From the NCBI RefSeq assembly GCF_002095435.2, contig NZ_MJEJ02000053.1, forward strand, positions 186,001 to 250,000: 64,000 nucleotides of DNA, read 5' to 3'. The position numbers were made by a program, and so were the translations under genes. Within the stretch, counting starts at the first letter, position 1; each line of letters begins with the position of its first letter. Source of the DNA: Williamsia sp. 1138. Its GTDB lineage: Bacteria > Actinomycetota > Actinomycetes > Mycobacteriales > Mycobacteriaceae. Of this stretch, positions 52,893 through 55,861 are shown piece by piece. The notes below the pieces were generated by a model. The model ran no database searches. It was not told the origin of the DNA and worked only from the letters and a program-made list of their open reading frames with translations.

Positions 52893-53372
52893 GTGCGTGG
52901 CGACGGCGACGGATGGGTTTTCGACGCGGATGGATCGCGGTATTGGGGTCGGCACGGCGCTGCCGGCTTGCTCCTCTTCACATCTAGTGAAACGAGCGCG
53001 GCGCTCATTCTGTTACAGCACCGCGCGGTCTGGAGTCATCAGGGCGGCACGTGGGCGCTACCCGGCGGGGCCCGCGACTCCCACGAGAGTGCCGTCGACA
53101 CCGCCACGCGGGAAGCCGACGAGGAGGCCGGCATCGCGGACGCCGAACTCACCGTCCACGCAGAGCTGGTGACCCACCGCGCGCCCAGCGGTTGGACCTA
53201 CACGACGGTGATCGCCGAGGTGGCGGCACCGCTGGCGACGACGGCCAACATGGAGTCGGTCGAGTTGCGCTGGGTGACCCCGGAGGAAGTGGACGGGCTC
53301 TCGCTGCACCCGGCGTTCGCGGCGAGCTGGCCCGAGCTGCGGACGCAACTCCTGGCGCTGGCGGGCACCTGA
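52893..53372 (+). CDS. mutT3: Nudix hydrolase, MutT3-like
   Basis: Predicted nucleotide pyrophosphatase, 159 residues. The Nudix box is GARDSHE-SAVDTAT-READEEAGI, fully matching the consensus. Flanking YWGRHGAAGLLLFT and LQHRAVWSHQGGTWALPGG are the same as in Rv0413 as recalled. The GTG at 52893 follows GAGGAGG and is followed by the conserved RGDGDGW, so it is preferred over ATG 52866. MutT3-like enzymes remove oxidised nucleotides such as 8-oxo-dGTP. Confidence 0.9.
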   Translation: MRGDGDGWVFDADGSRYWGRHGAAGLLLFTSSETSAALILLQHRAVWSHQGGTWALPGGARDSHESAVDTATREADEEAGIADAELTVHAELVTHRAPSGWTYTTVIAEVAAPLATTANMESVELRWVTPEEVDGLSLHPAFAASWPELRTQLLALAGT

Positions 53373-53393
53373 GTTTATCGGCGGGACAGCCCT

Positions 53394-53849
53394 TCAGCTG
53401 AGCCGGTTCGCGGCCGCGATCAGAGCGCTCAGTGCCGATTCCTCACCACCGGCACCACTTCCCATCGACCAGCTGCGACGGCCATCTCGCTCGCAGAGCA
53501 GGAACGTGGTGCTCCCGCCCGCATGCGAGTACTGGTGTAGTCCGATGATCTCGACGCCCAGATGAAGCTGGTACAGCATGTCGGACAACCCGGCGATCGC
53601 GCCGGTGGCGGTCGCGCTGATCGGTGCGACCGTAGCGCCGGTGTCGATGGTGGCCTGGCAGTGGACCAGGTCGTGCGGAGCTCGCGAGGTGTTCCAGGTG
53701 CCGAGGCGAATCGGACCTGACGTGGGGGCATAGGTGTCGGTGAAGGTGGACCAGTCCATGTCGGCCGCTTCGGCGCGCAAGGCCGGAGGCAGCGGTGTGG
53801 CGAAACGAGCGGCCAGATCGGTCGGGCCTGAAGAGGTGAGAGTTTTCAT
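53394..53849 (-). CDS. Stand-alone LeuA-type regulatory (LeuA_dimer) domain protein
   Basis: Protein of 151 residues equal to only the C-terminal allosteric domain of 2-isopropylmalate synthase. The match covers CQATIDTGATVAPIS-type strand, GAIAGLSDML, the VEIIGLHQYSHAGG segment (compare the recalled VLDYYEHAMSAG of LeuA), RSWSMG and SALSALIAAANRL. In LeuA this domain binds leucine. There is no catalytic barrel. A 13-codon leader peptide with Ile-Leu-Val-Val lies 73 bases upstream, so its expression likely responds to branched-chain amino acids. It could bind leucine and modulate another enzyme, but this is inference. Confidence 0.8.
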   Translation of the reverse strand: MKTLTSSGPTDLAARFATPLPPALRAEAADMDWSTFTDTYAPTSGPIRLGTWNTSRAPHDLVHCQATIDTGATVAPISATATGAIAGLSDMLYQLHLGVEIIGLHQYSHAGGSTTFLLCERDGRRSWSMGSGAGGEESALSALIAAANRLS

Positions 53850-53894
53850 GAGAGCGGTCTTCCGGTGAGAAAAGGATGACCAGCAGATAGCACG

Positions 53895-53933
53895 ACGGCC
53901 CGCAGCGGGGGGCCGGTCGGATCAGACCCCGCT
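53895..53933 (-). promoter_or_regulatory. Attenuator with two mutually exclusive hairpins
   Basis: On the minus strand, AGCGGGG inside the leader reading frame (53933-53927) can pair with CCCCGCT (53910-53904). Alternatively CGGCCC (53915-53910) can pair with GGGCCG (53901-53896). The two share base 53910 and overlap spatially, so ribosome position on the leader would decide which forms. A CTTTT stretch lies some way downstream, so the ending mechanism is not certain. Confidence 0.55.
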
Positions 53934-53963
53934 ACGGGTACGTACTACGAGAATTCGCTTCAT
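53922..53963 (-). CDS. Branched-chain leader peptide MKRILVVRTRSGV
   Basis: Thirteen-codon reading frame with ATG at 53963 and TGA at 53922, preceded by GGAG six bases upstream. Codons 4-7 are Ile-Leu-Val-Val, the run expected of a transcription-attenuation leader for branched-chain amino-acid genes; actinobacterial ilvB leaders as recalled contain a similar R-I-L-V. It precedes a gene for a LeuA-type regulatory domain, which fits exactly. Confidence 0.72.
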   Translation of the reverse strand: MKRILVVRTRSGV

Positions 53964-53982
53964 GATCGCTCCACCATAGACC

Positions 53983-54678
53983 TCAGCTTTTCGGTGACGC
54001 AAGCAGTTTCTGCCGCAACCTCTGCGCTGCCGAGCGTGGATCCGCGGCGGCGGTTATGGCCCTGACCACCACGATCCTGCTCGCGCCTGCTGCCAGGACA
54101 TCGGGGAGCCGGGCCTCGTCGATGCCACCGATCGCGAACCACGGCCGCTCGGTGACAAGAGCCGCGGTGTCGCGGACGAGTGCGAGTCCCGGCGCCGGCC
54201 GGCCGGGTTTGGTCGGTGTCGGCCAGCACGGTCCGGTGCAGAAGTAGTCGACCCCGGTCGCCGTCGCGGCGGCGGTGGCCTCGGAGAGCGCGTGGGTCGA
54301 CCGTCCGATGATGATGTCGTCGCCGACGATCCGACGGGCGAGGGCGACAGGCAGATCGTCTTGCCCGAGGTGCAGCACGTCGGCGCCGGTGAGCGCGGCG
54401 ATGTCGGCGCGGTCGTTGACCGACAGCAGTGCACCGTGCCGCGCAGCGACCTCCGCCAGCGCCCCGAGCAGGTCGATCTCCTGGGCGGCCTCGAGCGGCC
54501 CGAACTCGCGTTCGCCCGCCGAGCCCTTGTCCCGGAGCTGGATGATGTCGACGCCACCGGCGAGTGCTTGCTCGGCGAACGCGATCAGATCTCCACGTTC
54601 GCGGCGAGCGTCGGTGCAGAGGTAGAGCCGTGCGTCGGCCAGACGGGCGCTGCGGGTGGAACGGTCGGTGGGAGTCAC
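53983..54678 (-). CDS. thiE: Thiamine-phosphate synthase
   Basis: Joins hydroxymethylpyrimidine diphosphate to thiazole phosphate. It has 231 residues. [52 protein letters not shown] and [17 protein letters not shown] are all family motifs, close to Rv0414c as recalled. The GTG at 54678 is chosen to give the standard N terminus. It is divergent from the thiO operon, whose TPP riboswitch lies between them, so thiE itself seems not to be under that switch. Confidence 0.94.
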
Positions 54679-54716
54679 GAGGTCAAAATGTACCGGCGTA
54701 CCCTTGATGGCAATAC

Positions 54717-54813
54717 ACACACGGGTGCTCGAGGGAGACGTCGGGCTGAGATCGGGACGCGAACCGTCCACGAGACCGTTACACCTGATCCGGGTAATGC
54801 CGGCGAAGGAAGG
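54717..54813 (+). ncRNA. TPP riboswitch upstream of thiO
   Basis: THI element with the conserved parts in order: ACGGGTGC near 54721, GGCTGAGA at 54743-54750, ACACCTGATCCGGGTAATGC at 54781-54800 and GGCGAAGGAAGG at the 3' end. The 3' helix runs into the GGAGG ribosome-binding site of thiO (54812-54816), which suggests control of translation when thiamine pyrophosphate is bound. Confidence 0.95.
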
Positions 54814-54821
54814 AGGTGCCG

Positions 54822-55861
54822 ATGAAGACCCTCACGATTGTCGGCGGAGCTGTCATCGGCTTGTCCTGTGCGCTCTATGCTGCCGAGAACGGCTGGGAAG
54901 TAACGGTTTACGAAGCCGACGAAACCTCCGCGGCGTCGCGCGTCGCGGCGGGCATGCTAGGTATCGCAGGGGAGAGCCGCACCGGAGAAGACACGTATCT
55001 CGCGTTCGCCGAGCAGGCGATGTCCCGGTGGCCCGCATTCCTCGAGCGTCTCGGTGACGACCGCATCGTGGCCGCATCGTCGAGTCTGATGGTCGGGGTG
55101 GACAGTGCGGATGTGGGCGAGCTGGCGATGGTCGCGGACTGGCTACGCGACCGCGGTCATCCGGTGGAGCCGTTGACCGGCAAAGACATTCGTGCATTGG
55201 AGCCGGCAGTGTCGGCCAGGATCCGTAGCGGCTTCTGCGCCTCCGGTGAACTCGCGGTGGACAATCGGCGACTTCTGCAGGTGCTCTCGGATCGGGCTAC
55301 GGAAGCAGGTGTGCAGATCGTCCGGAAGCAGGTTGCCGACCTTGCCGACGTTCCGGGAGACCAGGTCTTGCTGGCCGCGGGCGTGGGCTCTGCGATGTTG
55401 TGGCCGGACCTCGGCGTGTATCCGTCGAAGGGCGAGATCCTGCGGTTGGGCTGGGCAGCGGGAGCGTTGCCGCCACCCGGACATGTTGTCCGGGGCCGTA
55501 TCAACGGACGGGCCGTCTACGTCGTGCCCCGCCCTGACGGGGTCGTGGTGGGGGCCACGCAGTACGACGGCGGCGACGATCGGTTGCCCGGCGCGGGCGG
55601 GGTCGCTGATCTGCTCAACGACGCCATCGAACTCATGCCGCCTCTGCGGGAGTACCGATTGTTGTCGGCGGAAGCGGGCCTGCGCCCGGCGACCGCGGAC
55701 GGCATGCCCCTCATCGGCCGGCTCGACGACCGCACGGTGGTGGCCACCGGTCACGGCCGCAACGGCATCCTCATGAGCGCCATCACCGCGGAACTGATCA
55801 CAGAGGTGCTGGCGGGCAAGACCATTGACAATCCGTCGATCGATGCAGGGAGAAGGCGGTC

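Follow-up and report, generated by a model that had tools for sequence, protein, structure and literature searches.

The window analysed here, a stretch of 64,000 nucleotides from Williamsia sp. 1138, encodes on its minus strand (positions 53394–53849) a 151-residue paralogue of the leucine biosynthesis enzyme LeuA that has no catalytic barrel and retains linker subdomain II and the allosteric domain. The gene is preceded by a short leader ORF within an RNA element that has a sister in the LEU element of leuA, with which it shares the pseudoknot, and in which the leucine codons of leuA leaders are replaced by Leu-Val-Val. In searches of the open-access literature we recognised no description of a standalone LeuA allosteric domain, or of a LEU-type leader in front of one; the LEU element and a widespread detached LeuA allosteric domain, which we have not found described together, are thus linked here.

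Domain composition of the barrel-less protein

The origin of this protein is apparent from its family. Searched alone, the window protein had no match among Pfam or NCBIfam models or PDB sequences, and the LeuA_dimer profile PF08502 gave no match to it at E ≤ 10. The same profile matches 50 of the 64 family members at E ≤ 1 (best E-value 1.8e-11), so that the preliminary description, according to which the gene consists only of the leucine-binding domain of LeuA without the barrel, was right at the family level, although its proposed profile check succeeds with the family and fails with the window protein itself. An alignment of the 64 homologues (A1) was matched by hhalign to an alignment of LeuA proteins (A3) with a probability of 97.8% and an E-value of 7.8e-13, spanning LeuA positions 438–603, which by the published domain limits (PMC2704214) comprise linker subdomain II and the allosteric domain. 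In the reverse direction, the profile of the barrel-less family retrieves the M. tuberculosis isopropylmalate synthase (IPMS) at 1e-9, and the LeuA model TIGR00970 matches six of the relatives, in each case via its C-terminal end. The AlphaFold model of the 151-residue protein (pLDDT 93.5) gave nine Foldseek matches at E ≤ 0.001, eight of which, the best included, are M. tuberculosis LeuA chains (TM 0.75–0.80) and one a chain of the regulatory domain of Leptospira citramalate synthase. The TIM barrel is absent, given the length of the protein and the alignment of its family with LeuA 438–603 only. The assignment as a LeuA paralogue without the barrel thus holds. The Williamsia genome itself has a single LeuA_dimer match, inside its full LeuA. 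NCBI uses the protein name 'alpha-isopropylmalate synthase regulatory domain-containing protein' for such domains, so that the barrel-less protein may already carry an annotation.

From LeuA-type allosteric domains such as those of M. tuberculosis IPMS (PDB 3FIG, 1SR9) and Leptospira citramalate synthase (3F6G) the barrel-less protein differs in the missing barrel, in a changed effector pocket and in being encoded by a separate gene with its own leader. In M. tuberculosis LeuA the residues named at the leucine site are L535, A536, V551, Y554, A558, A565 and A567 (PMC2704214), and we transferred these numbers by counting along the alignment of the family profile with the M. tuberculosis protein. 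At its base the pocket is retained (G533 in 60/64 sequences, P534 in 52/64, a mostly aliphatic residue at 535, and Ile in place of V551 in 53/64). Tyr554 is replaced by Phe or Leu in 62/64 and Ala558 stays Ala in just three, and the lid loop that carries A565 is shorter than in LeuA; leucine-contact residues are therefore only partly retained. Three residues specific to the family, Glu100 (59/64), His105 (59/64) and Gln106 (58/64), occupy the positions of LeuA Ala550, Tyr555 and Glu556. With Tyr554, Ala558 and the lid loop changed and Glu, His and Gln near-invariant at the effector site, the earlier designation of the protein as a leucine sensor is doubtful.

The same residues and the shortened lid loop would be accounted for if the protein were an autonomous metabolite binder, a standalone dimer with another ligand and another target to which LeuA is merely ancestral, and the varied gene neighbours among the genera compared point the same way. 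This reading is weakened by the leader, which is of the leuA type, carries branched-chain codons and ties the protein to the same pathway, and we regard it as rather unlikely.

Phylogenetic distribution and selection

We surveyed an order-wide sample of 42 genomes from the bacterial family of the window and 207 genomes outside it. Among the matches listed, the standalone form is present in 38 of the 42 family genomes, in open frames of 158–287 codons and at E-values of 1.7e-31 or better. The other four family genomes comprise one with no match (G085), one in which only LeuA is matched (G002) and two with weaker matches among those listed (8.3e-18 in G030, best in a 621-residue frame, and 5.4e-10 in G053). 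Outside the family, 202 of the 207 genomes have a match, and among the matches listed all frames are LeuA-sized but for two, of 152 and 377 residues, in assemblies that are 57% and 74% complete. An earlier tally of 180 of 201 genomes is an overcount, because in G002 the sole profile match is LeuA itself. A protein scan of named genomes for close relatives found none. The closest homologue among the matches listed, 62% identical, comes from a record titled Williamsia faeni that is marked unverified and contaminated.

Across 12 close pairs of the barrel-less gene the dN/dS ratio is 0.05–0.28, and it is about 0.2 between the window gene and two homologues from the same genus; selection and conservation together rule out a pseudogene or a chance ORF. 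That the locus is a LeuA fragment in decay, its leader being a remnant, might be suggested by the weak similarity of the window protein to the profiles and by one broken, leader-less copy on a Mycobacterium intracellulare plasmid. It is contradicted by these ratios, by the open frames in 38 of 42 family genomes among the matches listed and by the conservation of the leader, and we give this explanation practically no credence. The plasmid copy emerged from a search with one of the homologues (L013), which retrieved two plasmid records, one from M. intracellulare and one from Nonomuraea; the former (L275, NZ_CP012886.2) holds a remnant of the gene with a broken frame, beside which the leader element was looked for and not found. 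Phage records gave no match.

The leader ORF and its control codons

The leader ORF of the window gene (53922–53963, minus strand) encodes MKRILVVRTRSGV followed by TGA, with CTC GTA GTA as its control codons. The exact motif GGGGTCT[GA]A, which marks the end of the leader, is found upstream of 75 of the 90 fetched homologues; the covariance model recovers the element at eight of the 14 motif-less loci submitted and at one more (L041) in its genome region, bringing the total to 84 of 90 homologous loci. The other six are L052, L055, L073, L074, L075 and L077. Two of these, L052 and L073 (genus g3), have no model match and yet show another short upstream frame and a possible hairpin, perhaps representing a leader that has diverged. 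A leader frame ending at the motif could be called in 71 of the 75 cases. The frame stops earlier in L020 (MKRMKLVFRP), L029 (MKRIKLVFRP) and L048 (MQRLLVVHP), where Leu-Val codons remain, and in L046 it is open with no start codon found nearby.

In the codons at which a ribosome would stall, Val occupies position −7 in 68 of the 71 leaders and −8 in 55, and Leu occupies −9 in 51. In the leuA leaders of the same sample, by contrast, Leu is found at −7 and −8 in 27 of 27 and at −9 in 26 of 27 (three of the 30 leuA loci have no exact motif and were left out of this count). Val at −7 persists when only unique peptides are counted (40/43) and in a set from named genomes, where it is seen in 79 of 82 countable leaders (83 unique) among the matches listed. 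The branched-chain codons noted in the preliminary description are thus conserved as Leu-Val-Val. An R-S-G-V ending occurs in 69/71 leaders, its Gly-Val-stop part being built into the motif by which the leaders were selected. Valine is encoded by GTA in 114 of the 155 leader Val codons, as against 3.6% of the Val codons in 32 ORFs of the window chosen by codon-position GC. Given Val at −7 in 68/71 of these leaders and Leu there in all 27 leuA leaders, valine is, on codon content, a likelier signal than leucine.

These codon counts bear on the earlier proposal of a leucine sensor, made when leucine is scarce and docking on LeuA. The allosteric-domain fold predicted by AlphaFold and recovered by Foldseek would suit such a protein, and so would the Leu codon at −9 in 51/71 leaders; the presence of Val rather than Leu at −7 and −8 and the changed pocket residues argue against it, and we hold this possibility to be improbable.

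Among the 80 loci listed from named genomes, genera with the leader are Rhodococcus, Nocardia, Gordonia, Williamsia, Prescottella, Rhodococcoides, Antrihabitans, Millisia and Jongsikchunia. The leader pattern identifies at least 119 loci in named genomes, with the gene present at 115 of these 119; at the other four, one of which (L180) has an all-leucine leader, the leader match is near that end of the available stretch at which the gene is to be expected.

The sequence TATGGT (53973–53978, minus strand) conforms to a −10 box of the form TANNNT; its distance of 9 nt from the leader ATG implies a leaderless or nearly leaderless transcript. In 64 of 70 cases such a box is found 5–10 bases upstream of the leader start, and in none of 70 when the searched interval is shifted by 20 nt, and a Shine-Dalgarno-like motif precedes the leader in only three of 70; for leuA leaders the corresponding counts are 25/27 and 0/27. 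The window leader carries both TATGGT and GGAG upstream. From these upstream signals the leader ORF looks leaderless rather than led by a Shine-Dalgarno sequence; of the preliminary description, the 13-codon branched-chain leader stands and is conserved, whereas its ribosome-binding site does not extend to the family. The branched-chain leader of ilvBNC in Corynebacterium is similar in its Val codons and in a transcript that begins at the leader start: in C. glutamicum the first transcribed base is reported to be one base away from the start codon of the leader, and replacement of the three Val codons to abolish the valine response (PMC11857589).

Conserved and mutually exclusive RNA helices

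Both the leader and its RNA have good support. Folding of the region from the leader to the gene is better than that of most shuffled sequences (z = −2.5; 4/200 shuffles are equally good), and the homologous leaders share two alternative sets of helices, all on the minus strand in the window. For pairing counts we used an alignment (A2) selected by the exact motif; of the 73 distinct leaders it holds 59, near-duplicates, L039 (start miscalled) and L072 (long insertion) being left out. Since this choice hides variation in helix H1 and makes the Gly-Val-stop end true by construction, we added a wider set of 32 (A4), fitted to the model, which includes leaders without the exact motif (38 loci were submitted, six of them without a match).

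In the first structure the last leader codons (53927–53937) form the 5′ arm of H1, whose 3′ arm lies at 53900–53912; 99.1% of its pairs are formed in A2, and six show two-sided changes in the wider set. Helix H2 joins GACCGG (53913–53918) with CTGGTC (53878–53883) into a pseudoknot with H1 and is 99.0% paired, with A-U replaced by G-C in 10 sequences. A further helix, P0, is formed between the valine codons themselves (GTAGTAC, 53942–53948) and GTGCTAT (53887–53893); it is 82.8% paired and has two pairs with two-sided changes, so that conservation of the Val codons may be partly structural. The second structure consists of a local hairpin, H3 (arms at 53910–53915 and 53896–53901), which excludes both H1 and H2 and is 93.2% paired, with A-U to G-C changes in nine sequences, and of a sequestor hairpin. 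The 5′ arm of the latter, GGTCATCCT (53873–53881), overlaps the 3′ arm of H2, and its 3′ arm, GGAAGACC (53856–53863), includes the putative ribosome-binding site of the gene. Of its pairs, the outer ones (GGUC/GACC) are formed in 53 to 57 of the 59 sequences, while the inner ones are poorly kept (in 21 and 36 of 59 at two of them). The codon run pairs with alignment columns 79–86 and the putative binding site with the region of the H2 3′ arm.

Where column 57 changes from A to G, pairing is restored by the partner in H2 (10 sequences) as well as by that in H3 (nine), as is expected of mutually exclusive helices. In A2 the percentage of paired bases, the number of two-sided cells and the covariation score exceed those of all 500 shuffles, which keep kinship, for both structures; a count of the pairs that show two-sided changes is not above shuffles (4 against 3.2 in shuffles, reached in 179/500, and 5 against 4.6, reached in 305/500). 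Sliding H3 and the sequestor by one column gave 25 two-sided cells as against 23 in place, and RNAalifold on A2 proposed H1 alone, without two-sided changes. In the wider set, 14 of the 24 pairs (6/11 in H1) show two-sided changes, a number reached by none of 500 shuffles that keep kinship, in an alignment that was fitted to the model. The word GACC is found beside the putative ribosome-binding site in 62 of 70 tails (L039 left out), compared with 11.5 expected by shuffling and eight for the reversed word. With a folding program that does not handle pseudoknots, the binding-site stretch shows the expected greater openness in the stalled state in only 35 of 58 leaders (mean 0.299 vs 0.262), which gives no clear ON/OFF separation, and H2, which such a program cannot hold as part of a pseudoknot, has a mean probability of 0.229. 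The two competing hairpins proposed earlier are recovered as conserved pairing in H1/H2 and in H3 with the outer pairs of the sequestor, and neither the LeuA_dimer match nor the leader with its hairpins is missing at the family level.

No terminator-like site was found in 53300–54100, and a T5 run occurs in only four of 75 gaps between leader and gene; with no intrinsic terminator followed by a U run before the gene, a classical transcription attenuator was rejected. In this respect the locus differs from ilvBNC, for which a terminator/antiterminator pair is described in the accounts cited (PMC11857589, PMC10272879). A known Rfam element was likewise rejected, a search of 53300–55000 giving only a TPP riboswitch above the gathering score, and among five further loci, including those of leuA, only tRNAs exceeded it.

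Relationship to the LEU element of leuA

A covariance model built from the leaders of the barrel-less gene (R1) finds all 30 leuA loci tested, 29 of them at E-values of 1e-6 or better and one at 0.011. It has 108 matches at E ≤ 0.01 in 61 genomes, of which 47 precede leuA, 11 precede a leuA paralogue, 49 precede the barrel-less gene (44 assigned in the main scan; L266–L269 and L276, G056:C80, added by individual inspection) and one appears to be due to chance. The last (G047:C16, E = 0.006) was rejected, as profile searches of its 1.5 kb stretch gave no related gene. The R1 match that ranks next in the window has an E-value of 0.24. The ending GGGGTCTGA is shared with these leaders by 27 of the 30 leuA leaders.

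The leader element of the barrel-less gene is a sister of the LEU element, which was described upstream of leuA in Actinobacteria by Seliverstov et al. (2005; PMC1262725). Set against the description in words given there, the two share a short leader ORF, a two-helix pseudoknot and an alternative hairpin. They differ in the gene that follows (leuA in one case, its barrel-less paralogue in the other), in the codon run (leucine codons as against Leu-Val-Val) and, judging from that description, in the partner of the codon run, which here pairs between the helices and not with the Shine-Dalgarno box, the latter having a hairpin of its own. The 2005 authors left the mode of action of the LEU element open, and they reported that classical attenuation did not account for the effects of leader-codon mutations in ilvB and leuA of S. 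coelicolor (PMC1262725).

The simplest history, as far as sequence comparison can suggest, would be a duplication of leuA together with its leader, after which the barrel was lost and the codons changed from Leu to Val. A partial duplicate of the LeuA C-terminus, apparently a younger barrel-less piece, lies some 3 kb from the full leuA in another genome (L271, G008:C1:337680–338249), so that such fragments do arise. The same RNA is leucine-coded before leuA and valine-coded before the barrel-less gene of one genome, which makes each a natural control for the other and codon reading by the LEU element directly testable.

The 11 matches of R1 before a second, lower-scoring LeuA paralogue (G047:C13, G039:C6, G058:C7, G021:C23, G009:C9, G036:C12, G013:C25, G048:C100, G060:C90, G025:C12 and G023:C14) show that this paralogue also has a LEU-type leader; the copy in G023 has an internal stop.

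A possible mode of action

Separately made regulatory subunits are familiar from acetohydroxyacid synthase, in the form of IlvN and IlvH. Like these, and like HisZ acting on the short form of HisG, the barrel-less protein would be a separate allosteric protein for an enzyme of amino-acid biosynthesis; it differs from them in that the enzyme, LeuA, keeps its own allosteric domain and that the partner is putative. LeuA consumes 2-ketoisovalerate, the precursor of valine. We tentatively favour a translated, valine-sensing leader controlling a LeuA-type allosteric domain that acts in trans, perhaps as a brake that spares ketoisovalerate, and place this somewhat short of an even chance. Anatomy, homology, conserved pairing and the codon switch are shown by the sequences, whereas stalling, signal, ligand, partner and the direction of the effect are inferences.

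In such a scheme the short, probably leaderless ORF would be translated and, when charged tRNA-Val (perhaps also tRNA-Leu) is plentiful, the ribosome would reach the leader stop and cover the 5′ arms of H1 and H2. With these helices blocked, H3 could form together with the sequestor, which covers the putative ribosome-binding site, and little protein would be made. A ribosome stalled on Leu-Val-Val would instead allow the pseudoknot of H1 and H2 to take the strand of the sequestor, and the gene would be translated. The product may then act in trans on a LeuA-type partner through the interface of allosteric domains. Its most likely direction would be that of a brake on LeuA, leaving 2-ketoisovalerate for valine synthesis, which we infer from pathway logic and the switch from Leu to Val codons. 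The more specific proposal, that throughout the family a standalone LeuA subunit is turned on at valine shortage by its Leu-to-Val leader and throttles LeuA in trans, is one that we consider doubtful.

The effect could also be the opposite. In LeuA the leucine sites lie at the interface of two allosteric domains (PMC11057210), so that a heterodimer with the altered pocket could block feedback: pairing with LeuA subunits, the protein would make them insensitive to leucine and open the pathway at branched-chain shortage. The co-occurrence of Leu and Val codons in the leader is compatible with this, but the shift from Leu to Val fits the sparing of valine precursors better than the production of leucine, and we judge an activating role to be unlikely.

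If the protein does act on LeuA as a valine-responsive brake or otherwise, the branch point between valine and leucine would be controlled in trans, which, if true, would be of interest for amino-acid-producing actinobacteria. The conserved leader and the barrel-less LeuA hint that valine and leucine production may be balanced in a way not yet described.

Gene neighbourhood

In the window the gene is flanked by a NUDIX gene on one side and thiE on the other, which bears out the mutT3 and thiE neighbours named in the preliminary description, and thiO was identified as well. Elsewhere thiE lies inside the fetched stretch at 24 of 90 homologous loci; neighbours vary among the genera compared, and the neighbourhood gave no functional clue. 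Upstream of thiO the window carries a TPP riboswitch (54711–54828, plus strand; 58.5 bits, above the gathering score), and the longest thiE frame, which is on the opposite strand, overlaps it with its 5′ end.

At seven of the 38 loci scanned (L011, L013, L025, L031, L054, L092 and L093) the gene adjoins a cluster of tRNAs that includes those for Gly, Cys and Val, and a further tRNA-Val (cac) is present in six of the seven. The position of a tRNA-Val beside a gene with a valine-coded leader is curious, and may descend from one ancestor.
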